Positions 12,906 to 54,100 of a DNA stretch of 64,000 bases are shown one piece after another; the first letter of the stretch is position 1, and every line of letters starts with the position of its first letter. The stretch spans positions 14,436,787 to 14,500,786 of the forward strand of contig CM055895.1 in NCBI GenBank assembly GCA_029582155.1. Direction: 5' to 3'. The position numbers and the translations under genes were made by a program. The notes below the pieces were generated by a model, which did no database searches, was not told where the DNA came from, and worked only from the letters and a program-made list of their open reading frames with translations. Source of the DNA: Panopea generosa (Eukaryota; Mollusca; Bivalvia; Adapedonta; Hiatellidae).

Positions 12906-12976
12906 ACTGGAAACAGTGCTGCATTCATCTAAAGACAATGCATGACAACGGATAATATAAGATAACTTCAATTACA

Positions 12977-31930: not shown

Positions 31931-32399
31931 ATTAATTCCGAGATGTATAATAGATTCAATGTTAATTGATATTAGGGCAAGTTCATTATTGCACGGTATG
32001 GGTAAAGCAGGTTATTACTGTTTCTCGTGTAACCAATCAATAATTGAGTACTTGGTTTAAACATATTATTCATTAAAATGTACATATATACACATAAGTT
32101 TAGGTATACATATGGATTAGAACGGAAGATAAAATCTTATAAAGTTCTTTTCCATGACATATATCAATTGTGAACAAATTTGGCAGATTATCAACAATTT
32201 GATTTCTGCTCTTACCATTACGAATATAACATAGTTCAAAATATATTTTATAAAAATGTTTAACATACTTTTAGGAATATTGTTTCTGGTGTATTTAAGA
32301 AACTTAGAAAATGAAGTGAGTAATTAGAAAAAAAAAGAAAGGTGATGAAAATGATTAAAGTAATGGATAATTATGTGAATTCACATAATAATAACGGTT
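31931..32399. other. No feature recognised
   Basis: AT-rich spacer. Confidence 0.5.
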
Positions 32400-32974
32400 A
32401 ACACTTTTGGACAAGTTCTGAACGGCATGGACGAAATTGGGAGACGGGCTGACCTCACCACGTAAATAGAAACAGCCTTGTTATTTCTTCAGACTTACTT
32501 ACATGTTCAGGAGAAACGATTAGTGGATAAAATGTATTTGTGAACTGCTTCAAATATTTTAACATTATTATCATAAGAGAGTTGTAGTTCACCAAAAAGA
32601 AGTATATTTAAAGAAACTGTACATAACTCACTGACAGATGTCAGGAGTGGTATGCGTTGATGCTGGTAAAGGTGACAATTGAGAAAGAAGTGAGCTGTGC
32701 TTTCTATTTGTCCACATGTATACAGGGGGGAGTCTTCAATGTGTTTAAGAAATAGATGTTGTTTAAGTGCACTACAACTCGTTCGGAGGCGGGCATGCAA
32801 TAATTGGCATTTCCTTGTACCTTTGTAAAAGAATTTAGGTACTTTTGGTTCGTTACTTTCGAGTTTATGTTTAAAAGCATTCAGAGAAGAGGCTTGTCTT
32901 GTTTCAAGTGGGAGAGTGTTCCAGTCACGGACAACGGAAGGAATAAAGGAATTTGAGTACAGAGCGAGGAGCAT
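32400..32974 (-). mobile_element. 5'-truncated LINE, 3' fragment (C-terminus of a jockey/CR1-like RT polyprotein)
   Basis: Minus-strand frame of 155 codons (32974-32507) with the typical post-RT region of a non-LTR retrotransposon: SFIPSVVRDWNTLPLETRQA near residues 9-28, then a HARLRTSCSALKQHLF stretch and a Cys/His cluster (CGQIESTAHFFLNC). It ends IFEAVHKYILSTNRFS. The same ending (IFQAVQDYIKSTNRFSN) closes the element at 41805-42890, so both belong to one clade. Sequence from 32506 down to about 32400 is probably its 3' UTR. The endonuclease and RT catalytic core are missing: truncation lies at about 32975, where the next LINE starts. Not a functional gene. Confidence 0.8.
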
Positions 32975-33225
32975 TCAGTCAAGCTAAGACCCGTCCAATT
33001 GTAGCCAAATTCGCTTGGTCAGCAGATAAAGAAAACGTAAAAAGGTCGGCTAGAAACCTAAAGGGAACCACATATGGCATCAGCGAGCAGTACCCAAAAG
33101 AGATTATGGACGTACGCTGGAAACTCACGCCGATCATGAAACAGGCCAGACAGGAAGGAAAAGACGCGTATATCAGGATCGACAAACTATATATAGACAA
33201 GCAGTTGTACAGGGGAGATAACTAG
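32975..33225 (+). pseudogene. LINE ORF1 C-terminal fragment
   Basis: Open in plus frame 1 to TAG at 33223. It reads KTRPIVAKFAWSADKENVKR, then LKGTTYGISEQYPKEI, a RWKLTPIMKQAR stretch and DKLYIDKQLYRGDN. This is the C-terminal RNA-binding domain typical of L1-type ORF1 proteins, which coat LINE RNA as a nucleic-acid chaperone. The N-terminal coiled coil and RRM are missing because the element is 5'-truncated at about 32975-32987. The stop is in the same frame as the following EN/RT ORF, with no other stop for the next 85 codons. The apparent Met at 32953 is a TTG outside the homology. Confidence 0.75.
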
Positions 33226-36200
33226 GACAAATGTGAGAGTGAACTAAAGTGTTTAGCGTGGAATATTGAAGGGTTGACTATTGACAAAAGATCAAGCAAG
33301 GATTTTGTAAATTTAATTAATGATTATGATGTTATATGTTTTAGCGAAACATGGACCAACAAAACTTCAGATATCGACTTCAAAGGGTATAGTAATCCTA
33401 TTCATTCGTTTAGACGATTTCAGCACCGGAGGGCAAAACGCTCTAGAGGTGGTATCATTATTTATATAAAGGACTCGATTTGAAAAGGTATTAGCCTTAT
33501 AAAGAATGCTTATGATTGTTTAGTTTGGTTGCACTTTGATAGATTATTTTTTAATATTGATGAAGATATTTATTTGGCAGTAACATATATAGCGCCAGAA
33601 AATTCTCCTGCTCATAACATGTATGATATAGATATTTTTAGAACAATTGAACAATATGTAAATTATTTCTAAGATAAGGGGAAAATATTTATTGTAGGAG
33701 ATATGAATAGTAGAGTAGCTTTAAAAACCGACTACATAGATAATGACAGAAACATTGAGCAATTTGATTTTCTCGAGGTAGACAATCCACTACGTCGTGC
33801 GACCTCAGACTTGGTATCAAACCGTTACGGTGAATATTTAATTTATCTATGCAAATCAACGAATTTACGTATTGTTAATGGCAGGTTACATCGGGATAAA
33901 GGTTTAGGTAAAATTTCTTGCGTAACACATAATGGACAGAGCCTAGTTGACTACCTGTTAACGGCCCACAATAACTTTGACACACTTTCAGATTTTTGTG
34001 TTCACAATTTTAACGAATTCTCCAATCATGCCCCAATCGCATTTTCATTCGATATAACGCCTCAATATGAATCACGTGATACAAGAGAATACATTTATTA
34101 CAAGTGGAAACCCGAATTTATAAACGATTTTATTAATGGCATTGCTCAAGGTATAAATGATTTAGAACAATCGCTATTAGATGGAATAGATACTGATGAA
34201 CTAGTATCGAGTCTCACTGACTTCATTGACAAAAATGCAAATAAATATTTCAGGCCTACTGTTAAACCTTCGGGTAATTATTTTTTGTCAAATCAAAACA
34301 AAAACAAATGGTTTAATGATGAATGTAAAACTCGCCAATCACTATACAAGGAATATATTTTATTGTATAATATGAATAAATCGGATGCGAATAGGCAATT
34401 GATGCTACAATCGAAAAAGAATTATAAAAATTATTGCAGAAAATGTAAATATGCGTACAATCGGAACTTAGGATATAAGATGAACGAAATGAGACGTAAG
34501 CGGTCAAAAGAATTCTGGAACATGTTTAAAACACGTAAAAAACAGGGTATCAGTGATATACCATTGGGTAAATTCTATGACCACTTTAAAAACTTATCAT
34601 CGGATGTTACTATAAATCCTGATAACGAATGCGAGGATTTCTTAGATAGCTTCGATGGCTTTATAAATCCAAGTACTTTTTCTGAATTAGACAACCCCAT
34701 TAATCGTGAAGAAATAATTCCTGCGGCGAAGAGCCTTGGCACGAATAAATCAACCTCACTGGATAATATGCTCTATGAGTACTTTAAAGAGACAATCGAC
34801 CTAACAGCGAAGTCGCTGGAGATTTTATTTAATTATATTTTAAATACAAATAACTTTCCAAAAAATTGGTCAAAAGGAATCATTATCCCATTGCATAAAA
34901 AGGGGAGCATGAGCGATCCGAATAATTACCGTGGGATCACTTTGATAAGCTGTTTAGCCAAACTGTTTACCGTTATAATCAATGAACGGCTTAAAAAATG
35001 GGCAACACAGAACGACATTTTAACAGATGTGCAGTTTGAATTTAAAGCAAATTATAGTACAATAGATGCAATTTTTATACTTAACTCTTTTATCGAAAAG
35101 AATATCAATTCAAAGAAAAAATTGTATTGCTGCTTCGTAGATTTTAAAAAAGCCTTTGACTCGGTGTACCGAAACGGGCTTTGGTTTAAATTAATCAAAC
35201 TTGGTATAAATGGTAAATTGTAAAATCTACTCAGGTCTATGTATAATGACATCAAATTATGTGTTAAACACTTGAATAATTTGTCAGACTTTTTTGATTG
35301 CGAAGTAGGGCTATTGCAAGGGGAGATAACCTCGCCGATATTTTTCTCGTTATTTTTAAATGACATTGAACTGTCTCTTCAAGGTAACACCGATATAGGA
35401 ATAACACTTGATCAGCTATCTATTTATCTTTTGATGTTTGCTGATGATGCAGTGTTATGTTCAGAAACAAAAAAGGGATTACAAGCGTCACTTAATAATC
35501 TAGAAATATATTGCCACAAATGGAATTTAACAGTTAATACAGAAAAAATTAAGATCGTTGTATTTCGAAAGGGCGGGATGTTAAGTAAAAATGATAAATG
35601 GACATATTCCGGGTCAGAAATTGAAATAGTCAATAGTTTCAATTATCTAGGTATAGTATTGTCAAGTGGAGGGTCATTTATTAAAAACGCGAGCACTCTG
35701 TCTGGTAAAGCCATGCGGGCAATGAGTACCTTGCTTAGCGTAACAAAAACATATGAAATACCTATTAATATAATGTTTAACCTATTTGACTCATACGTTC
35801 TATCTGTCTTGAATTATGGTTGCAAAATATTGGGTTTTGATAAATCAGAGCAGCTGGGAAGGGTGCATAGAAAATTCTGTAAATGGACACTAAATGTAAA
35901 AATGTTTACAAATAGTTTATCTTTATACTCAGAAACGGGTAGATTCCCACTGTATATTGAAAGGTATATACGAATAATAAAATACTGGCTCAATTTACAT
36001 AAAGAAAAAAGCCGAAATTGTGTTTTAAACACAATTAAAAATGTACAGAGACAAGAAATTGAAACAAACCAGAATGCAAAAAACTGGTCTTCGAAAGTGC
36101 GAAATTTATTGTGCCAAAGCGGCTTTGCAGAAATATGGATGTATCCGGAATCAGTTATTGTAAACTTGTTCATACCTTTGTTAAGGAATAGATTAAGAGA

Positions 36201-36645
36201 TATTCATATAAATCATTGGCAAGAAACTATTTTAATCCACACTTCGTTGTCTTTGTACAGAAATATCAAACATACTTACCAAATATCAGACTACTTGATA
36301 AAACTGAACAACAAAAAACATAGACACATTATTGCCAAAATAAGATTGTCATCTCATTGTTTGTATATAGAAACCGGATGTCACAGGAACATAGTTAGAA
36401 ATGAAAGGAAATGTGTGCTTTGTAACAAAAACGATATAGAAGATGAATATCACTTTATTTTAATCTGTCCTCATTATAATGATATGCGAAAGCAATATAT
36501 TCCAAACTATTATATCAATAAACCTAGTATGCTCAAATTCATTAATCTTCTGCAGTCAAACAAAAAGTCTGTCTTAAACAAACTTGCATCATATTGTATC
36601 AACGCATTTAAAATGCGAGAACAGGTGCTTAATTCAAACACCTAA
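33226..36645 (+). pseudogene. LINE ORF2: AP-like endonuclease, reverse transcriptase and C-terminal Cys/His domain, three in-frame stops
   Basis: One plus frame (frame 1) runs from the ORF1 stop to TAA at 36643. It is broken only by TGA at 33481, TAA at 33670 and TAA at 35221; no frameshift was found in 3.4 kb. Endonuclease: start LAWNIEGL (33256), SETWTNKTSDIDF near 33340, GDMNSR at 33698-33715. RT: IIIPLHKKGSMSDPNNYRGI (fingers), CFVDFKKAFDSV with the motif A aspartate at 35140-35142, LLQGEITSPIFFSLFLND (motif B), FADD at 35437-35448 (motif C, both aspartates intact). The C-terminus has CVLCNKNDIEDEYHFILIC. Its protein would nick DNA and prime reverse transcription of its own RNA. All catalytic residues I can locate are kept, so this is a young or lightly decayed copy. 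Clade not assigned. Confidence 0.85.
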
Positions 36646-36920
36646 TTAGATAATATTTTTGATTATATTATAATAAGTCATATGTAAATAACAAGTCAAC
36701 CAGCCATGTTATTCACTCTCACTATAATTACTATTACCACCATAATTATTACTATTACTACCATATTTTCTAAAATGTTTGTATTTAATATTGATATGCA
36801 TTTTTGCATGTGCCTTATGTATTTGATTATGTATTTGAATATGTTATTTATGGTGAAAAGCTTTTGTAATGCTTAAGCCAAAATAAAAGAATGTTCTGTT
36901 CTGTTCTGTTCTGTAATTAG
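36646..36920 (+). mobile_element. LINE 3' UTR with (TGTTC)n tail
   Basis: Follows the ORF2 stop. It ends AAATAAAAGAATGTTCTGTT with about four TGTTC/CTGTT units to about 36915. A pentanucleotide tail in place of poly(A) is characteristic of several non-LTR clades, and marks the 3' end of this insertion. Confidence 0.65.
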
Positions 36921-36989
36921 CACGACGTCCTTATGACTTATCACTGCGCTGAATTGACATACTTGAAATCAAACGGCCTATGGTGAACG

Positions 36990-37136
36990 ATTTGACGCTT
37001 TATTGATGATATTGACATGCGATCCGTTTTATTGATGATATTGACATGCGATTGAACAAAGAATACTTCAAGAAGCTCCGTTTAAGCCATTTTCTTGGCT
37101 CCGTTTTATTGATGATATTGACATGCGATGTAGCCC
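36990..37136 (+). repeat. Duplicated pieces of the PLE catalytic-motif region
   Basis: CCGTTTTATTGATGATATTG followed by ACATGCGAT occurs at about 36997-37023 (partial), 37024-37052 and 37101-37129, and once more in the body of the element at 37459-37487. The segment 37053-37129 also repeats the sequence just before motif C (37410-37487, AAAGAATACTTCAAG and so on). These copies lie upstream of the RT homology and are not in the RT frame. In all three, the codons read Asp-Asp, whereas the resident copy reads Asp-Gly. Confidence 0.85.
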
Positions 37137-38032
37137 AAGGTCAGTTACCAGAAAACACTTTACTAGTCTCTACGGATGTCTCTTCACTTTATACAAATAT
37201 TCCTCACGACGAAGGTATTGAAGCGTGCAGGGAAGTGTGGGACAGTAGATCGATAAAAGATCCACCAACAAAATATCTTGTAGAGCTTTTAACCACTGTT
37301 TTGAAGTGTAACAACTTTGACTTTAATGGTGAACATTACTTTCAGATCAATGGCAGTGCTATGGGAACACGCATGGCACCTTCATATGTCAATGTGTTCA
37401 TGGGCCATCTTGAACAAAGAATACTTCAAGGAGCTCCGTTTAAGCCATTTTCTTGGCTCCGTTTTATTGATGGTATTGACATGCGATGGTGCCATGGTCG
37501 TGATAACCGTGATGATTTTATTAATTTCGTTAACAACTTTCACCCCACTATAAAGTTCACTGTAGTAATATCAAATGATGAACACATATTTTTAGACACG
37601 ACGTCTAAGATTATAAATAATACAGTACATACTGATTTATATTCAAAACCAACAGATACACATCAGTATCTTCTTCCAAGCAGTTGTCACCCAAAACATA
37701 TCTGTAAAAACATTCCGTACAGTTTGGCACTGCGTTTGGCACGTCGTATATGCACTGGTAATGAAAACTTTGAAACCCGTTCAAAAGAACTATTGCAACA
37801 TCTCACTGAACGCGATTATAAAGAAAACAATGTGAAACTTGATATATCGAAAGCAAGGAAAAAGGACCGAAAAGAAACACTTTCATATACTTCAAAAACA
37901 AATAAAACCTCTAATCGTATTCCTTTTGTAGCAACATATCATCCTAATCTGCCAAAACTTCGATCTGTCATCGACAAGCATTGGCCCACAATAAATTCTT
38001 CAGACACTCAGTCGTTAGTTTCCCGATTATAG
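37137..38032 (+). pseudogene. Penelope-like element reverse transcriptase, 5'-truncated, catalytic Asp lost
   Basis: Frame 2. Homology starts at [11 protein letters not shown] (about 37137). Motif [17 protein letters not shown] (37173-37220). Motif [21 protein letters not shown] (37352-37411). Motif [13 protein letters not shown] (about 37454-37489), where Penelope RTs have FxDD; the second Asp is Gly here (GAT GGT). After the thumb region the frame continues to 38029, then stops (TAG 38030). The expected continuation, AYRRPQNLRDLLVR, is in frame 1 from 38032, so a frameshift lies close to 38020. The N-terminal RT motifs before A are missing. Penelope RT is related to telomerase RT and would copy element RNA at an endonuclease nick. 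The open frame as it stands begins with scrambled duplicated sequence, so the Met at 37046 is not its real start. Confidence 0.85.
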
Positions 38033-38525
38033 CATACAGACGGCCTCAGAATCTGCGTGACTTACTTGTACGATAAAAAGCTCTGGTGAAGGTTCTGTAG
38101 TTGGAAAATCTGGTCCTTGTGGCTTAGCACGTTGTCAAATATGTAAAATTATGCCAGAATCATCTACAATCAAACAAATTTCTACGGGAGTCAGTATTTC
38201 CATTAAGTGTCACGTTACTTGTAAAACGGCTAACGCCGTGTATGTAATAACATGTTCTAAATGTAGTAAGCAACACATCGGCGAAACTAAACTGTCGTTG
38301 AGCCAGCGTGCATAGATCAGCTTGGAAACTACGCAGGTTCATTCGCTTGCCGTCTCTGAACATTTCAATAGTGACGTGCATTCGTTTGCCGATGTAATTT
38401 TACACTGCATTGGTCATGATCCAGATTGGACTGACAAGCAACGCTAAGATCGTGAAACTTATTGGATTAGACGATTCAATACCCTTTATCCATAAGGTAT
38501 AAACAAAAGCGATGGTTCTGCATAA
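38033..38525 (+). pseudogene. Penelope-like GIY-YIG endonuclease domain, broken
   Basis: After a short frame-1 piece (AYRRPQNLRDLLVR then TAA at 38074), frame 3 is open from 38079: a Cys cluster CGLARCQIC, then VYVITCSKCSKQHIGET, which matches the GIY-YIG core (VYxIxC...xxGET). Homology continues in the same frame past TAG at 38313 (SLAVSEHFNSDVHSFAD) and TAA at 38445 (DRETYWIRRFNTLYP), past TAA at 38493, and ends at TAA 38523. This is the C-terminal endonuclease that nicks target DNA for Penelope-like elements. Two frame changes and three in-frame stops make it inactive. Confidence 0.8.
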
Positions 38526-39060
38526 TTCGGTATGTTTGAATATACTGTATTTTTTATACATGCGTTCCAATAAAACTGTACTTCATTTCTCTTATTGGTG
38601 TTTGCGGCGCAATCTTTTTTTAATAATACCAGTTGTATTTTTGACGTTTAAAATAAATGTCATCGTTTGATATACTTCATAGCGCTAAAGAGTACACGAC
38701 GTTGTGTGACGTCACGTCAGAGTGAATTTTTCTTTAACAACTTTGCGCTTCACATTTTACTCAGCACAGTTTGAATTTTACCGGCGTATTTCACTGAAAA
38801 CACGGTATTTTTTCTTATAAATTTCACAATTTGCTTTATATTTTGGTGAAGTATATGCCGGTATATGAAGTATATACATCATAATTTGTGAACGTTTTCA
38901 CAATTTTATTAGTTTTTATTGTGATTTTTCCACACTTCCATGTTTTTATCATCGTAATCGTTTGACATCTTAACATTATCATCATATATATTTTCATTTT
39001 CTTCCCCTGAAGAAGAAATAATATTTATTTCGAAAGAGCTCGGGTTTTTTAAAATAATTT
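38526..39060 (+). mobile_element. Probable 3' region of the Penelope-like element
   Basis: Non-coding, AT-rich sequence after the endonuclease, containing GTGTGACGTCACGTCAGAGT (38713-38732) and, near its end, CCCCTGAAGAAGAAATAATA leading to TTTCGAAAG (39004-39036). A CTGAAGAAG...CGAAA signature near the 3' end is common in Penelope-like elements. The exact 3' boundary was not resolved; a (TA)n run follows near 39126-39144. Confidence 0.45.
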
Positions 39061-39218
39061 TAAAGAATTCAGTATTGTTTGGGTGTGTTAATTAATTTTT
39101 AATAATTAATTTATTATCTCTCCCCTCTCCCATATATATATATATATATAAATATACATTGAAATAAATAACATCTAATACATCACCGCCTAAGATATAT
39201 ATCTATTTATATCACCAG

Positions 39219-39313
39219 CACCTCCATCAACTGCGGTTATTATGACGTATGCATGAAGGGTTCGAAGATATGCACTGGTTCAACCAAAAGGTGTTACTGC
39301 AAGATTGGTTACT
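39219..39313 (+). CDS. Candidate exon A of a modular cysteine-rich protein
   Basis: Acceptor TTTATATCACCAG ends at 39218; donor GTGAGT starts at 39314. The 95-bp interval is open in one phase (one leftover base at each end, so intron phases 2 then 1) and reads TSINCGYYDVCMKG, then SKICTGSTKRCYCKIGY. The cysteine pattern is C-x5-C-x6-C-x6-C-x-C. The exon at 49702-49826 has the same pattern, the same KG after the second cysteine and the same phases, which is the main reason to believe both. No start codon or signal peptide is present, so earlier exons must lie upstream, beyond or within the retroelement block. The function is unknown; extracellular location is inferred from the cysteines. Confidence 0.5.
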
Positions 39314-40883
39314 GTGAGTTCATGTCGTATATTATATAGCCATGCATGTTGCATATCAAATAGTTTTTCGCATGTCATATAGCTTAGCATAGTTATGTAA
39401 ATGGTATACCATATAGCTATGCCCGTCGTAATATAGTTCTGCATGTCGTATCATATCGTGATAAATATCATATTGTTTTGCGTATCGTATTATATCGTGA
39501 ATAATATCACCGTTATGCCCGTCGTATTATAGTTATGCATGTCGTATCATATCGTGATAAATACCATATCGTTTGCGTATCGTATTATATCGTGTTAAAT
39601 ATAATCGCTATGCGTGTCGTATTATTGTATGTATGTCATTTTATATCATTTAGTTATGTAAGTGATTGATATCATATCGTTATATATGCATGTCGTATTA
39701 TAGGAATGCATGTCGTATTATAGGTATGCATATCGTATTATAGTTATGCATGTCGTATTATAAGTATGCATGTCGCATTATAGTTATGCATGTCTATTAT
39801 ATGTATGCGTGTCATATTATAATTATGCATGTCATAGTGTATCATTAAGATATGTAAGTGGTAAATATCATATCGTTATATATGCATGTCTTAATGTTTA
39901 ATTATAGTTAATAAATGTTCAATATATCATATCGCTATGCACGCCGTATATCATATAGCTATGCATGTCGTATATATGCAGTATATCGTATAGCTATGCA
40001 TGCCGTATATCGTATAGCTATGCATGCCGTATATTGTATAGCTATGCAACCCGTATATCGTATAGCTATGCATGTCTCGTATATCGTATAGCTATGCATG
40101 CCGTATATCGTATAACTGTGCATGTCGTATATCGTATAGCTGTGCATGCCGTATATCGTATAGCTATGCAAGCCGTATATATCGTATAGCTATGCACGTC
40201 GTATATCGTATAGCTATGCAAGCCGTATATCGTATAGCTATGCATGCCGTATATCGTATAGCTATGCAAGCCGTATATCGTATAGCTGTGCATGTCATAT
40301 ATAATATAGCTATGCATGTCGTATACCATATAGCTATGCATGTCAAATATAATATAGCCATGCAAGCCGTATATCATATAGCTATGCATGCCGTATATCA
40401 TATAGCTATGCATGTCGTATATAACATAGCTATGCATGCCGTATATCATATAGCTGTGCATGTCAAATATAATATAGCTATGCATGTCGTATATCATATA
40501 TCTATGCATGTCTTATATAATATAGCTATGCATGCCGTATATCATATATCTATGCATGCAGTATATCATATAGCTATGCATGTCGTATATCATATAGCTA
40601 TGCATGTCATATATAATATAGCTATGTATGTCGTATATAATATAGCTATGCATGTCGTATATAATATAGCTATGCATGCCGTATATCATATAGCTATGCA
40701 TGCAGTATATCATATAGCTATGCATGTCGTATATCATATAGCTATGTATGTCATATATAATATAGCTATGCATGTCGTATATCATAGCTATGCATGTCGT
40801 ATATAATATAGCTATGCATGTCGTATATCATATAGTTATGCATGTCATATATAATATAGCTATGCATGTCGTATATCATAGTG
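39314..40883. repeat. 24-bp minisatellite starting at the exon A donor
   Basis: The monomer is ATAGCTATGCATGTCGTATA plus TCAT (24 bp). It is regular from about 39940 to 40883, and degenerate, with longer spacing, from 39314 to 39940. The sequence right after the donor (TTCATGTCGTATATTATATA) already looks like a monomer. Long frames on both strands (up to 244 codons) repeat every 8 residues because 24 is a multiple of three; a mirror-image frame exists on the other strand, and none is credible as a gene. Confidence 0.95.
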
Positions 40884-40953
40884 TTATATATTTTCTCATT
40901 CGCTTTCTCAAATGAAAGTAAATATGTATGTGTTTCTGTTATATTCGACATAG

Positions 40954-41041
40954 GTCCTTGTGTATTATTTGAAGTTGTTACTCATGGCGTATTTGGCATA
41001 GTTATAAATGACACATTTGTCAAAGGTGTTGAAATTGTCAG
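40954..41041 (+). CDS. Tentative alternative exon (X)
   Basis: Acceptor TGTTATATTCGACATAG ends at 40953; donor GTAAAG starts at 41042. The 88-bp interval is open with phases 1 then 2 and reads PCVLFEVVTHGVFGIVINDT, then FVKGVEIV. It has the same phases as exon B (41198-41234), so either could join exon A to exon A', but not both in one transcript. It has one cysteine and no homology I recognise. This may be chance. Confidence 0.2.
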
Positions 41042-41197
41042 GTAAAGTATAGCTAAAAACTGTCTTTTACCCAATTCTTTCGGTATAAATGCAATAAAAA
41101 ATTACTTATTGCATGGGGCTTAGTTTCTTTTAAAAAATGTTAATAAAATATTTATTCAACATTTGTTTAATGAATCTGTTCTCCTTTTATCAAACAG

Positions 41198-41234
41198 CTG
41201 GAAAAACTGGGTGTCTTGACCGGTTTGGTAATAA
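41198..41234 (+). CDS. Candidate micro-exon B of the cysteine-rich protein
   Basis: Strong splice sites: polypyrimidine and AG (CTCCTTTTATCAAACAG, ending 41197) and a perfect GTAAGT donor at 41235. The 37-bp exon has phases 1 then 2 and reads GKTGCLDRFGN with split codons at both ends. Joined to exon A' it gives GCLDRFGNK followed by ACRFDEEC, adding a sixth cysteine to the module. A 37-bp exon is short; support comes from the splice sites and phase fit only. Confidence 0.4.
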
Positions 41235-41439
41235 GTAAGTATAAAGTATATTTTACAATACTATGTCATAGCTTTTTTTCTTTGTTTTTAAGAAGAAATT
41301 GGTCTGAGTGTATATGGCCTCAGATGCTGAGAACTTTTATTATTAAATAATCTTGGAAGACCAGTAAATTTGGAAGTATATTACCCCTTTTCATTTATTA
41401 CATTATATGTATGGACATGTATGTAGGTGTATACATATA

Positions 41440-41456
41440 TATATATGTGTGTGTGT

Positions 41457-41502
<46 letters not shown>

Positions 41503-41505
41503 TAG
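41440..41505. repeat. (GT)n microsatellite
   Basis: About 28 GT dinucleotides with one CTCT interruption, next to short TA runs. A relative of the 23.5-24.3 kb repeat family (GGGGATAACTATTGGTGAAC) lies just downstream near 41587. Confidence 0.95.
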
Positions 41506-41804
41506 TGTGCATGTATATATATATAAAGGGAGATAATTGGTATGTTGATAAAGGTAAAATGATTAAAATGTGATATGATATAAATATGGGGATAACTATT
41601 GGTGAACAACCAGGCACATATGAGTGTAGAGTTGTGTGTGAATAGGATTGTATGTTTGTATATGTGTATATATATATGTATATATAAGTATATCATGTCA
41701 GTACTTTCTATTAAAATATTGGATTGATCTTGAAAACAATGAAGTATCCTAAAGTGAAAGTATGTTTTTATTACCGTTTTTTCAAATAATTGCCCTAAAT
41801 TTTT

Positions 41805-43230
41805 GTGTACATGATGTTTTTGTGTTATTTTAAATTTTTACTATTATCTTGTTCGAGAGGAGATGGAAATTTAGAGATAAATTTATACAATACCTCCATT
41901 AACGCTGATCAATGCAACTTGCATGCACACAGCAGACTTCGCCTGGGAGTTATATTTAATAGAAATGGAAAATGGACAAAACATATAGAAGAAATCTTGA
42001 CTACCTCATCAAAAATATTTGGTACGATGTAAAAATTGAAATTTTCCCTTAATAGAGCAGCATTAAATCAAATATACTTGTCATATGTTCGACCTATTCT
42101 CGAGTATGCATCTATAGCATGGGGCGGTTGTACAGTTTCCTTTTCTGTATCCCTTGAAAAGCTTCAAAACGAAGCAGCTCGTATAGTTACCGGGCTTACA
42201 AGATCCGTTTCGTTAGAAAAAAAAATATAAAGAATGTGGTTGGAAAACTCTTTCCTAAAGAAGAGAAAATCAAAAGTGTTCCTTTATATTTAAATCGGTT
42301 AATCGTATAGTTCCTGAGTATATAAATGATATTATGCCTCCGCATGTTGGTGATATTACACGTTATCCATTGCGTAACAGAAATGATATTGAACTTCCCC
42401 TTACACGAACTGCTTTATTTAAAAAATCTTGTATCCCATCATCGATATCATTATGGAATTCTTTAAAACCTGATATTAGACAATCAGCGTCGTCTTACTC
42501 TGTTTTTAAGAAAAAAAAACTTTCTTCTTCATCTGGCACGAATGGGATCCCTGATTAGTTTTTACATGACAATTCATATTTATTGGTTATCCATGCTAGA
42601 ATTAGAAACAACTGCAGCAAACTTAATAATGACCTTTTTTCTAAATCACTTAAAACCAAACGCTATACGTGATTGTTCCAACGGAGTAGTAAATGCTGAA
42701 CATTTCTTTTTTTCAATGCAGTCGTTACAGAAATCTAAGATATTCACTTTCCCAATCTACGAGAGAATTCCAACCGTTTAATAATAATGTATTACTAGGT
42801 GGTAATAAGAATTTAAAATGGGATGAAAACATTCACATTTTTCAAGCTGTCCAGGACTATATCAAAAGTACAAACAGGTTTTCAAATTAAGTTGTATTAC
42901 ATTCCGAGAACATTTGATAAGCTTTCCAATATGTATATGTATGATGTGGTAAATAGCCAAATAAACGTATGCAAAGTTATATATGTAATTATGTTTGTAG
43001 TTTTAGTATTTTTTTTAAGTTTGTTATAAGTTTTCTGTTGTCTCTGCTCTCATTCTCTTACAATTCTGTCTTTTTCTCCTTCATATTTATTTTTTATTTG
43101 TTTACAACTGTCGTACTCTATATGTTATTTGTTAAACTGTAGGGGGAAGACCGAATCTAATGTTGGAAGAACTTGTGGCCCAAACCAATTTCTGTATATA
43201 TAAATAGAAATAAAATATGTTTAAACGAAA
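41805..43230 (+). pseudogene. 5'-truncated, frameshifted LINE fragment (jockey/CR1-like RT C-terminus)
   Basis: Begins inside the RT after the catalytic core: LHAHSRLRLGVIFNRNGKWT near 41920-41980, then in the same frame, past TAA at 42030, YVRPILEYASIAWGG (about 42083-42127). The reading shifts after 42230. FKKSCIPSSISLWNSL is in frame 1 (about 42418-42465), NAIRDCSNGVVNAEHFFF in frame 2 (42660-42715), and the end IFQAVQDYIKSTNRFSN in frame 3 (to 42887). The ending matches the minus-strand LINE fragment at 32507, so they share a clade. Sequence to about 43230 is probably 3' UTR. Inactive. It lies in the intron between candidate exons B and A'. Confidence 0.8.
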
Positions 43231-43344
43231 CACAGACTTTTTTACCGGTACCTTACATAACAACACTGCCACAACAATGAATAATACATTTTTTTGTTAA
43301 GCGCAACTTGTGTCTCTGCATATATTATTTTTAGTGCATATTTT

Positions 43345-46300
43345 AAATGACGAGTAATAATCCAATTATATATATGAATGTACAGGGTATTTTAGATAAA
43401 AATGAGTGACAAGATACATTTGACTTTCTCAAAAGTAAACAAAAATCAATTTATTTCCTTCAAGACACTCATTTTACTGATGCAGATATACCTTTTATAC
43501 GTACTCAGTGGGGTAATGACTGTTTTTTAGCATTTTTTCTAGCCAATCTAGAGGTGTAGCTACTCTTTTTAACAACAATTCTTAATTCAAAGTACATTCA
43601 TTGGAAAACAGACCAAAATGGAAATAAAATCATATGACATACAACTTTATGTAATAAAAAAAATCAACTTATAAACAGCTATGGCCCAAATAGAGATGAT
43701 CCTAATATCTATGATAACCTGAATGAGAATATTCTAGCAACTGATTTTTTAACCGTCATTGCTGGAGACATGACTAATTTTTAATTTCAACATGTTTAAT
43801 GATGGATGTTGACACTGTAGATATAAAACGAGGATATAGCACTGACCATTCTCCAATCCGTTTAATACTAGAATTTTGAAAATTTGAAAAAGGAAAATCG
43901 TATTGGAAATTCAACAATTCACTTTTAAAGAACATTAATAAAATAAAGAAAACAATAAACTGCGTAAAATTACAATACGCTAAAAGGGTTTTTAATAATG
44001 ATATAAATAATATACAATGAGGAGTAACAATTTAATATAAGTGATCAACTATTTTTAGAAGTGATTTTATTTGAAATTCGTGGAGTAACTATTTCTCATT
44101 CCTCTTACATCAAACGACAACAAGACCAAAGGGAAGCAATACTTTATAATGAAATTGAAAATCTAGAAAAAGAAATCATAGAAAACCATACTTTAATAGA
44201 ATAAAAAAAAGAATTAATTGATATAAGAAAGAAAAAAATAGAAGGGATAAGAATAAGATTACGGGCAAAATGGGTGCAAGAAGGAGAAAAGAACTCTAAA
44301 TATTTTTGCAATTAAGAAAATAGGAACTATACATCAAAATCAATGTTTCAACTTCAGGTATCTAATGGTCAAATCTTAAAAACACAAGATGAAATTCTTA
44401 AAGAAACGAAACGGTTTTATAAAGAATTATATTCACCTAGGGAAATTAAAAACATAAATTTAAATGATACTTTTTCGCATTTAAATATATCAAAATTTAA
44501 TGAAATTAAGAAAACATTACTTGAAGGTCCCATTACCTATGAGGAACTGCTTGCTTTTTTAAAATGTCGAATGATAAAAGTCCGGCTTTGACGGATATAC
44601 GGTTGAATTTTAAAAATTCTTTTGGATAGACGTAGGACATTTTTACTGCGTGCTATAAATGAGTGATATACTAAGGGAGAACTTTCAATTTCACAAAAGC
44701 AAGGGGTCATAACATGTTTACCAAAGGGGAACAAAGATAAATCGTTTTTAAAAAATTGGCGCCCAATTTCACTTTTAAATGTTTCTTACAAGTTAGCATC
44801 TGAATGTATAGCCAACAGAATGAAAGAAACTTTACCATTTATTATTAATGAGGATTAGACAGGATTTTTGTCAGGCCGATACATTGGCGAAAATACTCGA
44901 TTATTGTATGATCTAATGTTTTATTTAGAAAAGAATCATGTACCAGGCATGTTACTACTTATTGACTTTGAAAAACATTCGACTCGGTCGCCCGAGCTTT
45001 TATTTTTGCTTTTCTTATTTTTTTCTAACTTTGGTCCATCCTTTATTAAATGGGTCATGGTATTTTATACAAATATAGAATCATGTGAAAAAGTCAATGG
45101 ACACTTGTCAGAGTGGTTCTACTTACAGAGAGGCTTAGACAAGGAGACCCATTATCCCCATATATATATTCATTTTATGTGCAGAGATCCTCGCTGTTCT
45201 AATCGGAAATAACCCTAATATAAAAGGAATACAGATTGACGATACATTTTTTTTTTAATTTCACAATATGCCGTTGAAAAAACACTCATGCTTGATGGTT
45301 CAGAAAAATTCACTTGTAAACACTTCAAACACTCAAATTCTATACCGAAATCTCCGTCTTAATATCAATGTTGATAAAACTAAGGCAGTGTGGATAGGTT
45401 AAATGAAAAAAAGTAATATTAAGTTATGTGAACAATATAATCTATCTTGGGACAATGAATTTACTGTCCTAAGTATTCGATTTTCAGTAGATCTAGACAA
45501 AATGATTAATGAGAACTTTGATGATAAAATACATGATATAAAACAACTTATTATCCATTGGTCAAAACAAATATTAACACCAATTTGTAAAATAACAATC
45601 TTAAAAAGTTTAGCCATATCAAAAATTAATCATCTTATCTTAGCTCTACCAAACCCTAACTCAGATAAAATTAAAGAGATTAAAAGTTTATTTTTTTAAA
45701 TTTATTTGGAATGGTTAAGCGGATAAGGTGAAAAGAACTACTCTTTGCAACTCTTACATAAAAGGAGTCTCAAAATGTTTGATATAGACCTTTTTATTAA
45801 CTCATTAAAACTCACATAGATAAGACACCTTTTAAACCCAAATAAAAAGTATCTAAATATATTTAAATCAATGTACCCATTCATGTCAAATGTTGGCGCA
45901 TATGGCCCGGATTTTATTAGAAGACACATAAACAGAATACATAATCCCTTCTGGAAAGATATTTTTGGAAGTAATCAAACATATTCAAACCTACTAAAGC
46001 CTGCAAATTGGTACACATTTAAAAAAATTCCAATTTGGTTTAACCCAAACATTTAGATCGGAGGCACAAGTATATTTTATAACCATTGGTTCTCTAAGGG
46101 TGTTTTATTGATAAGTGATATTATGAACACAAATGGTAATTTCTACTCAATGATTGATTTTATTAAGGTACAACATAAATACAAACTTCATAAAATATGA
46201 AGGATTGCTAGCATCTGTTAAAAGGTACTTATTTAAACTTTCAATTGTTCATTTAGCTAGTAATGGAGGGGTACCTACATGCCCTTTATCAATATCAATA

Positions 46301-46860
46301 ATTATGAAAGATAAAAAAGGGTGTAGGGCAATGTATCAGTCTTGTATACAAGAAAATATAATCCCTCAATCCGCTGTTAAATGGGAAAATGATTTGGATA
46401 TAAGAACCAATTTAGTTGAAATCAAATTTTGCTGCCATCCATTTAACTTGACAAATGACACAAATTTATAATGGTTTCAGTACAGAAAAAACTACCAAAT
46501 AGTAGGAACCAATTCTCTTCTATAAAAAATGAAAATAAAAGATTCTGATATTTGCAGTTTATGCAACAGAGAAGTAGAAACAATTAAACATATTTTTATC
46601 GAATGTGATATTTCTAAACAATTTATCTCGTGTTTGATAAACCATATTTGCGAAAATGTATAGGCATTAATTTAAATTGGACAAATACAGACATTATATT
46701 CGGAAATAAAAATTTTGACAAAGTTTTGAATAAAATAATATTAATTGCAAAGAAATTTATTTACATTCAGAAACTTAAAACAGTTAAACCTACACTTGAC
46801 AACTTTAAAAAACACATTATAAATCTGTATATACAGAACGGTATTTTGCAGCAATAAATT
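43345..46860 (+). pseudogene. Decayed L1/Tx1-like LINE ORF2 (endonuclease and RT)
   Basis: A nearly full-length but heavily broken ORF2. Endonuclease start MTSNNPIIYMNVQGILDKNE near 43348; SIYFLQDTHFTDADIPF near 43450. RT: KWVQEGEKNSKYF near 44260-44300, then [20 protein letters not shown] (44750-44810), TGFLSGRYIGENTRLLYDLM (44858-44917), a degraded motif A (LLLIDFEKHS, 44953-44982), a degraded motif B region (LQRGLDKETHYPHIYI, ancestrally of the RQGDPLSPY type), and ISQYA at about 45261-45276 before motif C. Many stops and frameshifts. The C-terminus has CSLCNREVETIKHIFIEC-like sequence near 46551-46610. [11 protein letters not shown] and the SPY-type motif B point to the L1/Tx1 group. Non-functional, and older than the LINE at 33.2 kb. 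Confidence 0.8.
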
Positions 46861-48645
46861 GTAAAATACACACTTTTGATATTATTTGGAATGATTATAA
46901 GCTACTAATATTTTGATACAAATTTGAAACATTTTACATGTTACTTTTCAGTTTTGATTTAGACACATTTGTTTGATTACAAATACAATTATATTTTGTA
47001 GATAATGAATTATATCAATCCCCATCCCCGCCCCACAGTGTTTTTATTTTTTCCTTTTTTATTTTCTCCAATCAACTATAATATTTAACTGCTCATTATC
47101 AAGACTAGACCTGCATTTAGAATAATTATTTAATGTTAATAAACCACAATAAAGCATTACTTTCTTTTTAAAAAAATAAGTTTACAAAGTCAGATAAAAG
47201 ATTCAAAGCAGAATATTTTATGACAATTGGGTTGTTTTTTATGCACTTATCTATCATCAATAAATGAACTCCAACATTTAATTTAACATGTATTGTTGCT
47301 TTATAGTTTATAAATTACAATAAGTGAAAAGTATTTTGATAACGTAACAAGGTTGACTCTCATCAATGTTTGTTAGACTGGATGAATACTTATAAGGAAT
47401 TTGTTGGTGAAAATTTGCTCTTTTTAAGTTGTGTACTATTTGCTCAGGAATTTGCAGAGCTTATGCTTATATATTTATTGTTTTAAATATCTCTAACACA
47501 AATGATTAACCTGCAAGATGTTTGATGATATTCCACTATATAACTAACTACTTTATATTAAATTGTAAAAACTGATTTCAATTACATGTATATTGTTCAG
47601 CACGTCTACAAACGCATATATGTACAAGTTATCTTAATGTTTGGTAGCCATTAAGGTGTTGACCCCGGTTTCACTAATTTAACATATTTTGATAATTTCC
47701 TCAGCAATATTTTTAAATGCTAAAACATCACACTTACTGATTATGTTGCAAGTTATACTTTATCATTAAGTAAAGAGGTGTTATGACTGTATGTGGTAAC
47801 TTAACTGTGAAGTATGTCAAATAATAATTAAAAGAGAAAATTAAAAATTATATTGGCTGTGGAGGATTTAGTGGGCACTGCTTGTTATTATTTAATTCCA
47901 ACAGGCAGTCAGACACTCAATGGCTATTAGAAATTTCTAAATGTATATATAATTGTCATGAAATATTTTGTATCAATATGTCTGTTTTTGTACAACTAAA
48001 TTCAAATAAAAATTACAAAAAAATATTTTACAATACTGGTAAACACGTCGTATAAACCAATAATTGCGTGACAATTTTATCCAAAATATAACATGTGGGA
48101 ATTATGTTACATGTGGGAATTATGTTAACAAATACACAACCTCGATTTCCGGTTGAATTGTAAAATAACCGTGCGACTAAAATGCCTATTGATCATTGTT
48201 GACAACACGTCTATTTTCGAATTGTACTATTTCAACACTTACTGTAATTACTTGTTATCCATTGTCGGACAGCAGATGTTAATATTTGAATAATAAGAAA
48301 ATGAATCGGAAGTAATTTGCGTATAATGTCAAATGTTACTGGCAAAATATATTGAATATAACCATGTATATCGTCGAACTCTCCCACAAAAACTGACAAA
48401 TGTTGTTCCATTTTCTAGGTTATGAATTTGAAATATCTTATCTAGCTGTAAACGTTACTAACCATCTTATATGAGCCTTAACACTTTACAACTTTGCATT
48501 ACCTCATGATTTCATATATATGTGAACTGAGTGAATAAAGGATATTGTATTTTTTTAAATTTAGAACATAGTAAAGTGGTAATTTTTATGAGTATAGTAT
48601 AAAGTAAATGAAAGACACAAATACATATTACAACAATTTTATATA
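46861..48645. other. Intronic AT-rich sequence, no feature recognised
   Basis: About 1.8 kb, probably the LINE 3' end followed by unassigned DNA. A C-rich stretch CCCCATCCCCGCCCCACAG at 47019-47038 resembles the one at 3650. A single MITE-like end (GACCCCGGTTTCAC) is near 47663. Nothing else. Confidence 0.5.
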
Positions 48646-48812
48646 TTGAGCACGTGGTCCAGTGGTAGAGCATCGACCAAAGGATCGGGGTGTTGTGGGT
48701 GCAATCCTCTGCCAAGGCTATGTGTGGTGTCCTTGAGCAAGACACTTTGTTTGATTTGTCTAAGTTGCAAGAACATGTTTCACAATCGATGTAAAATAAA
48801 TAAGTGTAAAAC
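48646..48812 (+). mobile_element. tRNA-derived SINE, family B, copy 3 (internally deleted)
   Basis: Head GTGGTCCAGTGGTAGAGCAT, body TGTGTGGTGTCCTTGAGCAA, tail CACAATCGATGTAAAATAAA. Compared with copy 1 at 7557 it lacks about 40 bp between AAGACACTTTG and TTTGATTTGT. Confidence 0.8.
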
Positions 48813-49061
48813 AATTTTATATATTGTGGAGTACTCTTAAAAAATTAAAACGTCATTTCCGGTTTAAATAATTACGTAATATGTCCATGGGGTCAGTGAA
48901 ATAAGATTTTTTGAACAGACCCTACTTTTTTTATCAGATCAAGAAGCTCTTTACTGTTATAACATAACCAGACGTCAGTTTGACGGTTGACTGCGCAAGA
49001 AATTGTAAAATTTAGCATCTAGTTTCTAGGGTGCGTTGTCACCCAATCGAATTTAAGCTTT

Positions 49062-49701
49062 TAGCAGTCTCATATAAATACTAAAATATCCAATGCATGT
49101 CTCATATAAATACTAAAATAGCCAGTGCATGTCTCATATAAATAATACAATATATAGTTCATGTCTCATATAAATAATACAATATATAGTGCATGTCTCA
49201 TATAAATAATAAAATATCCAATGCATGTCTCATATAAATAATAAAATATCATGTGCATGTCTCATATAAATAATAAAATATCCTGTGCATGTCTCATATA
49301 AATAATACAATATATAGTGCATATCTCATATAAATAATAAAATATCCAGTGCATGTCTCATATAAATAATAAAATATCCTGTGCATGTCTCATATAAATA
49401 ATAAAATATCCTGTGCATGTCTCATATAAATAATAAAATATCCAATGCATGTCTCATATAAATAATAAAATATTCAGCGTATGTCTCATATAAATAATAA
49501 AATATATAGTGCATGTCTCATATAATTAATAAAATATCCAATACATGTCTCATATAAATAATAAAATATCCAGTGCATGTCTCATATAAATAATACAATA
49601 TATAGTGCATGTCTCATATAAATAATACAATATATAGTGCATGTCTCATATAAATAATACAATATATAGTGCATGTCTCATATAAATAATGTAATATTCA
49701 G
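49062..49701. repeat. 32-bp minisatellite ending at the exon A' splice acceptor
   Basis: The monomer is GCATGTCTCATATAAATAAT plus AAAATATCCAGT (32 bp), about 20 copies. The last copy runs ATAATGTAATATTCAGAGCA then TGTCGATTT, so the real 3' splice site (TTCAG, ending 49701) and the first exon bases (AGCATGTC) are themselves the last monomer. Most upstream monomers carry a CCA or CCAG before TGCATGTC. Confidence 0.93.
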
Positions 49702-49826
49702 AGCATGTCGATTTGACGAGGAATGTATCAAAGGAAAGAATAAGAAATGTACTGAGGAGAAAATGAGCTCTAAAAAATGTGCATGCAAGTCAACAACACC
49801 AACGACGCCTCCAAATAATGCAAGAC
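49702..49826 (+). CDS. Candidate exon A' of the modular cysteine-rich protein
   Basis: Acceptor TAATATTCAG ends at 49701; donor GTATGT starts at 49827. 125 bp, phases 2 then 1. It reads ACRFDEECIKGKNKKCTEEK, then MSSKKCACKS, then a Thr/Pro linker TTPTTPPNNAR. Cysteine pattern: C-x5-C-x7-C-x9-C-x-C. It is homologous to exon A (39219-39313), which lacks the linker. Base composition is clearly less AT-rich than the flanks. The Thr/Pro linker suggests a boundary between extracellular modules, possibly O-glycosylated. The domain family is not recognised. Confidence 0.6.
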
Positions 49827-50095
49827 GTATGTAGCCTTTGTCTCATTTTTTCTATTATCTTGGCGTTTATAATATACATGTTTAAATACTTATTTCTTTA
49901 TTTTGAAAATTTGATCTACAATATTTTTACAACTTATAGTTAAAGACCCACCTGTTGAAAAAATAAAATGAAATTGATTGCATCCATGGCCGATTTATTA
50001 CAACATTAAAACACACGCGTTTATAGATTTCTTACATGTTGTTGAACTATTTGTCAACATGCCTGGATATTAAACGTGTATGTATTTTTAATCCA
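49827..50095. other. Intron between exons A' and C
   Basis: 269 bp of AT-rich sequence bounded by GTATGT and CAG; no other feature. Confidence 0.5.
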
Positions 50096-50221
50096 GAATG
50101 TACTGTATACGACGGGCATACTCGAGTTGATATTCCTGCAAATCAAAATAACAACTTTGTTAGAATAGCAGATACGTGCAGAGAATGTTGGTGTGCCGAT
50201 CCATCAAACGGAAAGTCCATT
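50096..50221 (+). CDS. Candidate exon C, half-VWC-like module
   Basis: Acceptor GTATTTTTAATCCAG ends at 50095. It enters in phase 1, matching exon A'. It reads CTVYDGHTRVDIPANQNNNF, then VRIADTCRECWCADPSNGKS. The C-(x)n-C-x2-C-x-C spacing is that of the N-terminal half of von Willebrand type C-like modules, which mediate extracellular protein binding; homology is suggested by pattern only. Two donors are possible: GTGTCG at 50222 (phase 1, fits the longer frame of the next exon) or the better-looking GTAAAT at 50230 (phase 0, adding Gly-Val-Gly). The upstream Met at 50036 belongs to intron sequence. Confidence 0.55.
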
Positions 50222-50715
50222 GGTGTCGGGGTAAATATAAATTACCCAAATTTAGAAATGGTTTACCTAAATGCTGTACTTCGTTTCCATCATTTTAGAA
50301 GTGTTTATAGCATATAGAGTTATAAAATGATTGTTCGATTTGATATTATATTGTATCGGTTGTTATACATATAGATTGGAATAACGTTTAAAATTGACAG
50401 TTTTTAATTGTTTTTATGTTTTCAATCAAAAATTGCAGTAAACAACACTTTATCCAGGATATTCAAAATTCTCTATAATTGTATTGTTTCTTTTTTTTTA
50501 ATTATAATGCCTTATTTTTTAAGTTTGTTTACTATCTTCAAAATTCTGTGTTTAGTCTCTAATAATTGTTTTTATTTCACTTACCCGAAAGAACGCTGTC
50601 TTTATATAAAATTTTGCAATGTGACTATATTAACAATGAAATAAAAAGAGTTCTCAAAAACGAAACATGAAATTAAGTATTAACACTTTAAGTGAAACCG
50701 TTTTTTTCTTTGCAG
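50222..50715. other. Intron between exons C and D
   Basis: AT- and T-rich, ending in a strong polypyrimidine tract. Open frames here (for example 50408-50644) are low-complexity Phe/Leu/Ile runs of T-rich DNA and are not called. Confidence 0.45.
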
Positions 50716-50834
50716 CTTTTACTGCACTGCAGGCCGATAAGAAACTGTCTACCACACTTCCTCCGGCTAAAGATCACAAAATAACAAAGATCAATACAAT
50801 AAAAATAGCCAACGCCTTTGTATTGACTTGTTGA
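50716..50834 (+). CDS. Candidate 3' exon D
   Basis: Strong acceptor (TTTTTTTCTTTGCAG, ending 50715). In phase 1 it reads FTALQADKKLSTTLPPAKDH, then KITKINTIKIANAFVLTC and TGA at 50832. The STTLPP stretch recalls the Thr/Pro linker of exon A'. In phase 0 (if exon C uses the GTAAAT donor) it reads LLLHCRPIRNCLPHFLRLKI, then TK and TAA at 50782, followed by an AATAAA at 50798-50803 that could be the polyadenylation signal. The two readings cannot be separated here. The last codons of the phase 1 reading run into the next tandem repeat. Confidence 0.4.
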
Positions 50835-51005
50835 CTTTTAATTTGTTCCGGTTCCTTTTTGTATTGACTTGTTGACTTTAGTTTGTTCCAGGTTTTTTTA
50901 TTGACTTGTTTACTTCAATTTGTTCCGGGCTTTTTATATCCACTTGTTGACTTTCATTTGTTCCGGGATTTTTTTATCGACTTGTTGACTTTTAATTTAT
51001 TCGGT
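50815..51005. repeat. Short tandem repeat, about 45 bp, four to five copies
   Basis: Units of TATTGACTTGTTGACTTTAA, TTTGTTCCGG and a T-run. Copies begin near 50820, 50862, 50899, 50939 and 50977. It overlaps the end of candidate exon D. Confidence 0.85.
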
Positions 51006-51154
51006 TACTTGGCAAGTTTTTCTGCTTTACAAGAATGCAAACGTGCGAGCAAATATCGGTTTGCTTATTAAGGTTGGAATTCAAGTGAGCGTAAAAGATA
51101 AACCTAAAAACTGTAAGAGAAGCAAGTGGTATTACTTTTCTCAATTTCAAGATA

Positions 51155-54100
51155 AAATTATAGAACCTGTGCAGTTTACATCAGCATATCTTGGTGGTAT
51201 CATTAGTCTCAATAACACGACAGAGTTATAGAACCTATGCAGTTTACACCAGCATATCTTGGCGGTATCATTAGTCTCAATAACATGACAGCGTTATAAA
51301 ACCTATGCAGTTTACATCAGCATATCTTGGTGGTATCACTATTCTCAATATCATGACACAGTTATAGAACCTGCCCAATTTACATCAGCATATCCTGGCG
51401 GTATCACTAGTCTCAATAACATGACAGAGTTATAGAACGTGTGCAGTTTACATCAGCATATATCCAGGTGGTATCACTAGTCTCAATAACATGACAGAGT
51501 TATAAATCTGTGCAGTTTACATCAGCATATATCCTGGTGGTATCACTAGTCTCAATAACATGACAGAGTTATAGAACCTGTGCAGTTTACATCAGCATAT
51601 ATCCTGGTGGTATCACTAGTCTCAATATCATGACAGAGTTATAGAATCTGTGTAGTTTACATCAGCATATATCCTGGTGGTATCACTAGTCTAAATATAA
51701 TGACAGAGTTATAGAACCTGTGCAGTTTACATCAGCATATATCCAGGTGGTATCACTAGTCTCAATAACATGACAGAGTTAAAGAATCTGTGCAGTTTAC
51801 ATCAGCATATATCCTGGTGGTATCACTAGTCTCAATATCATGACAGAGTTATAGAACCTATGTAGTTTACATCAGCATATCTTGGTGGTAGTACTAGTCT
51901 CAATATCATGACAGAGTTATAGAACCTGTACAGTTTACATCACCATAACAAGGTGGTATCACTAGTCTCAATAACATTGCAGAGTTATAGAACCTGTGCA
52001 GTTTACATCAGCATATATCCAGGTGGTATCAATAGTCTCAATAACATGACAGAGTTATAGAACATGTGCAGTTTACATCAGCATATATTGGTGGTATCAC
52101 TAGTCTGAATATCATGACAGAGTTATAAAACCTGTACAGTTTACATCAGCATATCAAGGTGGTATCATTATTCTCAATATCATGACAGAGTTATAGATCC
52201 TGTACAGTTTACATCAGCATATATTGGTGGTATCACTAGTCTCAATAACATGACAAAATTATAGAACCTGTGCAGTTTACATCAGTATATCCTGGTGGTA
52301 TCACTAGTCTCAAAAACATGAAAGAGTTATAGAACCTGTGCAGTTTACATCAGCATATATTGATGGTATCACTAGTCTGAATATCATGACAGAGTTATAG
52401 AACCTCTACAGTTAACATCAGCATATCAAGGTGGTATCACTATTCTAAATATCATGACAGAGTTATAGAACATGTGCAGTTTACATCAGCATAACCTCGT
52501 GGTATCACTGGTCTCAATAACATGACAAAGTTATAGAACCTGTGCAGTTTACATTAGCATATATCCTGGTGGTATCACTAGTCTCAATATCATGACAGAG
52601 TTATAGAACCTGTGTAGTTTACATCAGCATATATCCTGGTGGTATCACTAGTCTCAATAACATGACAGAGTACTAAACCTGTGCAGTTTACATCAGCATA
52701 TCTTGGTGGTATCACTAGTCTCAATAACATGACAAAGTTATAGAACCTGTGCAGTTTACATCAGCAAATATCCTGGTGGTATCACTATTCTCAATAACAT
52801 GACAGAGTTATAGAACCTGTGCAGTTTACATCAGCATATATCCTTATGGTATCACTAGTCTCAATAACATGACAGAGTTAAAGAATCTGTGCAGTTTCCA
52901 CAGCATATCCTAGTGGTATCACTAATTTCAATATCATGACAGAGTTAAAGAACCTGTGAGGTTTACATCAGCATATCCTAGTGGTATCACTAGTCTCAAT
53001 AACATGACAGAGTTATAGAACGTGTGCAGTTTACATCAGCATATATCCTGGTGGTATCACTAGTCTCAATAACATGACACAGTTATAGAACCTGTGCAGT
53101 TTACATCAGCATATCCTAGTGCTATCACTAGTCTCAATATCATGACAGAGTTATAGAACCTGTGAGGTTTACATCAGCATATCCTAGTGGTATCACTAGA
53201 CTCAATAACATGAGAGTTATAGAACCTGTGTAGTTTACATCAGCATATATCCTGGTGGTATCACTAGTCTCAATATCATGACAGAGTTATAGAACCAGTG
53301 TAGTTTACATCAGCATATATCCTGGTGGTATCACTAGTCTCAATATCATGACAGAGTTATAGAACCTGTGTAGTTTACATCAGCATATATCCTGGTGGTA
53401 TCACTAGTCTCAAGAACATGACAGAGTTATAGAACCTGTGTAGTTTACATCAGCATATATCCTGGTGGTATCACTAGTCTCAATAACTTGACAGAGTTAA
53501 AGAATATGTGCAGTTTACATCAGCATATATCCTGGTGGTATCACTAGTCTCAATATCATGACAGAGTTATAGAACCTGTGTAGTTAACATCAGCATATAT
53601 CCTGGTGGTATCACCAGTCTCAATAACATGACAGAGTTATAAAACCTGTGCAGTTTACATCAGCATATATTGGTGGTATCACTAGTCTAAATATCATGAC
53701 AGAGTTAAAGAATCTGTGCAGTTTATATCAGCATATATCCTGGTGGTATCACTAGTCTCAATATCATGACACAGTTATAGAACCTGTGTAGTTTACATCA
53801 GCATATATCCTGGTGGTATCACTAGTCTCAGTAACATGACAGAGTTATAGAACGTGTGCAGTTTACATCAGCATATATCCAGGTGGTATCACTAGTCTCA
53901 ATAACATGACAGAGTTATAAATCTGTGCAGTTTACATCAGCATATATCCTGGTGGTATCACTAGTCTCAATAACATGACAGAGTTATAGAACCTGTGCAG
54001 TTTACATCAGCATATATCCTGGTGGTATCACTAGTCTCAATATCATGACAGAGTTATAGAATCTGTGTAGTTTACATCAGCATATATCCTGGTGGTATCA

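Follow-up and report, generated by a model that had tools for sequence, protein, structure and literature searches.

A 64,000-nucleotide stretch of the Panopea generosa genome (assembly GCA_029582155.1, contig CM055895.1, positions 14,436,787 to 14,500,786 of the forward strand; hereafter the window) probably contains one animal gene on the plus strand, some 23 kb long (27605-50784), whose six coding exons would encode a secreted disulphide-rich product. The gene is most likely of an ordinary, fast-evolving secreted-protein kind, a common animal gene type. An earlier note on this DNA had proposed one secreted cysteine-rich gene on the plus strand, made of five exons from 39219 to 50834; its observation was partly confirmed and its interpretation partly supported. 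One secreted gene is the best reading of the sequence, with splicing, secretion and function of the product predicted from it, and the following exons were assigned.

27605 to 27699, plus strand: probable start of the coding sequence, an exon for the signal peptide MTMCGINIVVLILVALVCRVETKRNKGLVTC; it leaves in phase 2, and a second in-frame ATG lies at 27611.
39219 to 39313, plus strand: exon of phases 2-1, TSINCGYYDVCMKGSKICTGSTKRCYCKIGY, first cysteine module, AG/GT borders and open frame.
41198 to 41234, plus strand: mini-exon of 37 bases, phases 1-2, GKTGCLDRFGNK, which provides the sixth EGF-type cysteine.
49702 to 49826, plus strand: exon of phases 2-1 that carries the second cysteine module together with the Thr/Pro linker.
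50097 to 50230, plus strand: exon of phases 1-0, VWC-like first half CTVYDG...DTCRECWC; a weaker alternative end at 50222 gives phases 1-1.
50716 to 50784, plus strand: last coding exon in the preferred reading, frame 0, LLLHCRPIRNCLPHFLRLKITK and stop, with AATAAA at 50798.
50716 to 50834, plus strand: rival last exon in the frame of the earlier note, which would go with the weak donor after 50222.

Each of the six exons has an open frame and intact borders, and the phases of the preferred model (start-2, 2-1, 1-2, 2-1, 1-0 and 0-stop) match at every one of the five junctions. Once joined, the coding sequence comprises 555 bases including the stop and yields 184 residues, arranged as a signal peptide, two six-cysteine EGF/EB-like modules, a Thr/Pro linker (STTPTTPP) and a VWC-like tail. 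Assuming a signal peptide that ends with ALVC, the mature protein has 166 residues and an even number of cysteines, namely 18. The G+C content of the coding sequence is 42% (38, 47 and 42% at the three codon positions), compared with 31.8% in the two long introns.

Splice sites were scored with approximate matrices and ranked among the 4204 GT and 3424 AG sites of the window. The acceptors at 39219, 41198, 50097 and 50716 were in the top 3.0%, 1.3%, 5.8% and 0.06% of AG sites, and the donors after 39313, 41234 and 49826 in the top 1.6%, 2.1% and 4.4% of GT sites. The intervals 39219-39313, 41198-41234 and 49702-49826 were exactly as first proposed, including the AG/GT borders and the phases 2-1, 1-2 and 2-1, but the last two exons required revision. 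The fourth of the five proposed exons had been started at 50096; its acceptor AG is 50095-50096, so the exon starts at 50097. Its donor, placed at 50221, is actually after 50222 (TTG/gtgtcg; top 27%) and weak, whereas the donor after 50230 (GGG/gtaaat; top 2.1%) is better. The description of the exons as phase-symmetric did not hold either: by the phases given with it, only one of the four internal exons is symmetric, and in the preferred reading none is. The only symmetric units are the pairs 39219+41198 (2-2) and 41198+49702 (1-1).

The two exons at 39219 and 49702 both contain C-x5-C, x-K-G after the second cysteine and a C-x-C end, as had been noted. With the cysteine at the end of the exon before it included, each module follows the layout C-x(5/8)-C-x5-C-x(6/7)-C-x(6/9)-C-x-C, and a phase 2 intron separates its first two cysteines. 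The leading cysteine comes from the mini-exon in module 2 and from the signal-peptide exon in module 1, so that the terminal Cys of exon 27605-27699 gives both modules an equal six-cysteine layout. Motifs were counted on both strands over approximately 40 kb of the window, leaving aside the main tandem arrays. Two exon-like C-x5-C-x(5,8)-C-x(5,10)-C-x-C stretches were found, at 39219 and 49702, compared with none in 1000 dinucleotide shuffles; the VWC-half pattern, observed once, occurred in 13 of the 1000. Besides the exons of this gene, a scan of the window for cysteine exons listed 24 further entries, 11 of which fall within the stretch of the two retroelements (36371-38265) or a TG repeat; with the stricter module patterns, only this gene's three exons were selected. 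The loop similarity between the modules, beyond the cysteines, was reached by 134 of 20,000 loop shuffles, which modestly supports the proposal that they arose by duplication.

Within the 10.4-kb gap between the modules (39314-49701), 12 strong acceptor/donor pairs were found, of which the mini-exon alone is open and fits the phases of both neighbours. It extends CYCKIGY to CYCKIGYSGKTGC, producing across the junction an EGF-like signature that the earlier note had overlooked. The joined exons 39219+41198 read C-x5-C-x6-C-x6-C-x-C-x2-G-Y-x5-C and match the EGF_2 signature of PROSITE, which has six cysteines with C-x-C-x2-[GP]-[FYW]-x(4,8)-C. A strong matching mini-exon was also present in 21 of 1000 intron shuffles. 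When splice strength was ignored, 41 of 211 compatible pairs (from 3375) gave an EGF_2 match; splice strength therefore bears much of the argument for the mini-exon.

Signal-peptide candidates were judged by hydrophobicity and the -3/-1 rule. Five start positions in 1-39219 passed the scan for an ATG, a hydrophobic core, -3/-1 residues and a donor, and exon 27605-27699 stood out among them. Its hydrophobic core has a Kyte-Doolittle mean of 3.9, its donor at 27700 (CAG/gtaggg) scores 6.8, the highest of all GT sites in the window, and its outgoing phase 2 is the phase required by exon 39219. None of 500 shuffles of 18501-39219 combined phase 2 with a core value of 3.5 or more and a donor score of 5 or more. 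By donor, core and phase, this is probably the missing signal-peptide exon that had been sought upstream. Another signal peptide at 37046 (open reading frame 37046-38032) was rejected: 37052-37135 repeats 37410-37493 (95%) within one reverse-transcriptase-like element, so the hydrophobic stretch is a piece of that element translated out of its own frame, which mimics a signal peptide inside a long open frame.

The product was then compared with known families. The only PDB sequence match of the joined exons 39219+41198 was the fibrillin EGF domain 1emn (E 0.7), aligned through the junction so that five of the six cysteines coincide, and both of two cysteine-fixed shuffles were without any PDB match; this weak alignment is supportive, not proof. 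In contrast to EGF-like modules, this gene has its junction between the fifth and sixth cysteines, and the second module (exon 49702) lacks the sixth EGF cysteine and the G-Y, having five cysteines followed by the Thr/Pro stretch. Both modules resemble the EB module (PF01683) in sharing one six-cysteine layout once the preceding exon's Cys is included, but the EB module has eight cysteines, and neither module here has a Pfam match. The C-x2-C-x-C spacing that had suggested half of a VWC module in exon 50097-50230 is present, within a first half of the form C...DG...C-x2-C-x-C (DTCRECWC), and the C-x5-C gained through the better splice could be the second half of a VWC-like unit. VWC domains have ten cysteines and end in C-C-x2-C, whereas the preferred tail has six cysteines, no C-C and hence no such ending, 25 residues between its first and second Cys, and no Pfam match to support family membership. 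Several matches were set aside. A two-sequence profile of the modules aligned with one PDB chain named Hainantoxin-3 (E 1), treated as a chance cysteine alignment; the VWC-like part gave three unrelated PDB matches (best E 0.68); and the peptide of exon 50097 matched a retroelement reading frame at 33919 (E 0.008, the best beyond the gene among the matches listed), taken as chance. No entry listed by a literature search named this protein, although such a search cannot show that a protein is unpublished.

The introns are occupied largely by repeats. Intron 27700-39218 holds an inverted-repeat element, a long interspersed nuclear element (LINE)-type element and a reverse-transcriptase-like element; intron 39314-41197 is mostly minisatellite; and intron 41235-49701, searched on the plus strand only, holds reverse-transcriptase remnants and ends in a 32-base array.

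33703 to 36645: LINE-type element with two RVT_1 matches.
37046 onwards: reverse-transcriptase-like element, RVT_1 just under the cut-off.
39416 to 40880: minisatellites with 20- to 96-base units, mainly a 24-base array, starting some 100 bases downstream of exon 39219 in the intron.
49067 to 49709: 32-base array of 20 copies, the last unit carrying the acceptor and the first 8 bases of exon 49702.

The array thus overlaps the 49702 splice site, its last unit including the acceptor. This unit agrees with the consensus at 28 of 32 bases, the next 32 bases match the unit at 6 of 32, and 12 of the 20 units have an AG at the acceptor place. That a minisatellite captured the 3' splice site of a single-copy lineage-specific gene, with inclusion of module 2 varying between individuals according to array length, is a speculative proposal of low probability. 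The 24-base (39981-40880) and 32-base (49067-49709) arrays, at both ends of a 10-kb stretch, share the core TGCATGTC; their unit similarity was reached by 49 of 2000 shuffles, and a common origin is possible but weak. Directly behind the signal-peptide exon, nested inverted repeats were observed at 27916-29641, with 98-base outer arms that are 94% complementary.

The 3' end of the gene allows two readings. After the donor at 50230, the last exon reads in frame 0, stops at 50784 and adds two cysteines (C-x5-C) behind DTCRECWC. After the donor at 50222, it reads AFTALQADKK...VLTC to 50834, the end first proposed. In one rival reading, the five downstream exons form one gene with this second ending and a signal peptide elsewhere; the phases (1-1, 1-stop) fit too, with Thr/Pro contained in the tail. 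However, this donor ranks far below the one after 50230, the mature protein would have 17 cysteines, and AATAAA at 50798, the only one found in 50701-51200, would fall within the coding sequence. The ending at 50784, with phases 1-0 and 0-stop, is therefore preferred and probably correct, that at 50834 is possible, and the gene as first drawn, with its signal peptide elsewhere, appears unlikely. The repeats raise another explanation, namely that these are exon fragments of a decayed gene, once functional, whose splicing was lost to invading repeats, one array having overrun the 49702 acceptor. The poor acceptor within the last array unit and the retroelements and minisatellites in the introns are consistent with such decay. 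Against it, the six exons are all open, with intact borders and matching phases, and the sole stop that the genome search reported for its exon 49702 match is located upstream of that exon (49667-49669). Decay is accordingly considered quite improbable.

It could also be argued that two neighbouring genes have been joined, the signal-peptide exon belonging to one and the cysteine exons, with a different first exon, to the other. The 11.5-kb gap is bridged solely by phase, and the search of 27700-39218 for further phase 2-2 exons, which found none, used thresholds (acceptor at least 1.0, donor at least 0.5) too strict to recover exons of the strength of 49702 or 50097. Nevertheless, the phase matches, no other signal-peptide-like first exon of phase 2 was found in 18501-39219, and the last Cys of the signal-peptide exon equalises the layout of the modules; two genes are thus considered unlikely. 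The idea that noncoding DNA has produced open stretches flanked by splice-like sites by chance would be favoured by the shortness of the exons, the lack of a relative, and the recovery of the VWC-half pattern and of a matching mini-exon in some shuffles, but not one shuffle included even a single EGF/EB-like exon where two were seen, and the agreement of phases extends to every junction, which makes chance very improbable. The likelihoods given for the single gene and for its rivals overlap, the rival tail being compatible with the same first exon, and need not sum to one.

Several results weigh against the six-exon gene. Some weaker signal-peptide-like exon of phase 2 was contained in 103 of 500 shuffles of 18501-39219. 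Of all acceptors in the gene, that of exon 49702 is the weakest, no better than average (top 49% of AG sites) and without a pyrimidine tract. The motifs and thresholds were written after the exons were seen, so the shuffle results are not clean probabilities. The fibrillin match disappeared with longer queries (the 130- or 166-residue protein), which gave no PDB match. No Pfam family was found up to E 10 for the whole or its parts, including EGF, PF00093 and PF01683, in a scan where HMMER filters discard most matches above about 0.1, and no NCBIfam match was found in a library built for prokaryotes. One search of the 1.47-Gb genome of the species with a 144-residue query revealed no paralogue: three of its four matches were at this locus, and the fourth (E 6.9) has surroundings without such an exon. 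The gene is therefore single-copy as far as this search can tell, which reads exon by exon, scores only the best candidates and is limited in sensitivity by short exons. Likewise, no relative was among the matches listed in the flanking 50 kb (5 kb of which is N) for the exon peptides other than that of the mini-exon, the listing giving the top seven matches for four of them.

Other features of the window were as follows.

2537 to 3100, minus strand: intact intronless frame of 187 codons like sarcoplasmic calcium-binding protein (best PDB chain 9l5m, E 5.5e-11); EF-hand models match it below their cut-offs.
12967 to 16970: 4-kb array of 49-base units, 81 copies.
51126 to 64000: 12.9-kb satellite of 70-base units, starting about 340 bases past the preferred stop and not listed in the next 10 kb.

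A search against viral contigs gave four pattern stretches, none confirmed, and no RNA families or tRNAs were found.

In summary, open exons, splice consensus and matching phases suggest that six exons would be spliced together across introns of which two were enlarged, probably by repeats and retroelements, to 11.5 and 8.5 kb. The signal peptide would route the product outside the cell, where its 18 mature cysteines would pair inside the two EGF/EB-like modules and the VWC-like tail, and the Thr/Pro linker between modules and tail may be O-glycosylated. The product would most likely act outside the cell as a small binding or matrix protein, with disulphide-locked modules gripping a ligand or matrix partner. 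The tiny exons and repeat-filled introns make the gene hard to annotate, and the remark that annotation based on open reading frames (ORFs) would miss it is fair, since the longest open frame of any piece in its coding frame runs 96 codons from stop to stop. If spliced as proposed, the gene would encode a small secreted protein that could escape ORF-based and profile-based annotation alike, because its exons span 37 to 134 bases, Pfam offers no family for it and the search revealed no paralogue that might draw it in. Genes of this sort may plausibly supply part of the 'missing' fast-evolving secretome in repeat-rich invertebrate genomes. With its array, the 49702 acceptor also offers a case in which an influence of a minisatellite on splicing could be tested.

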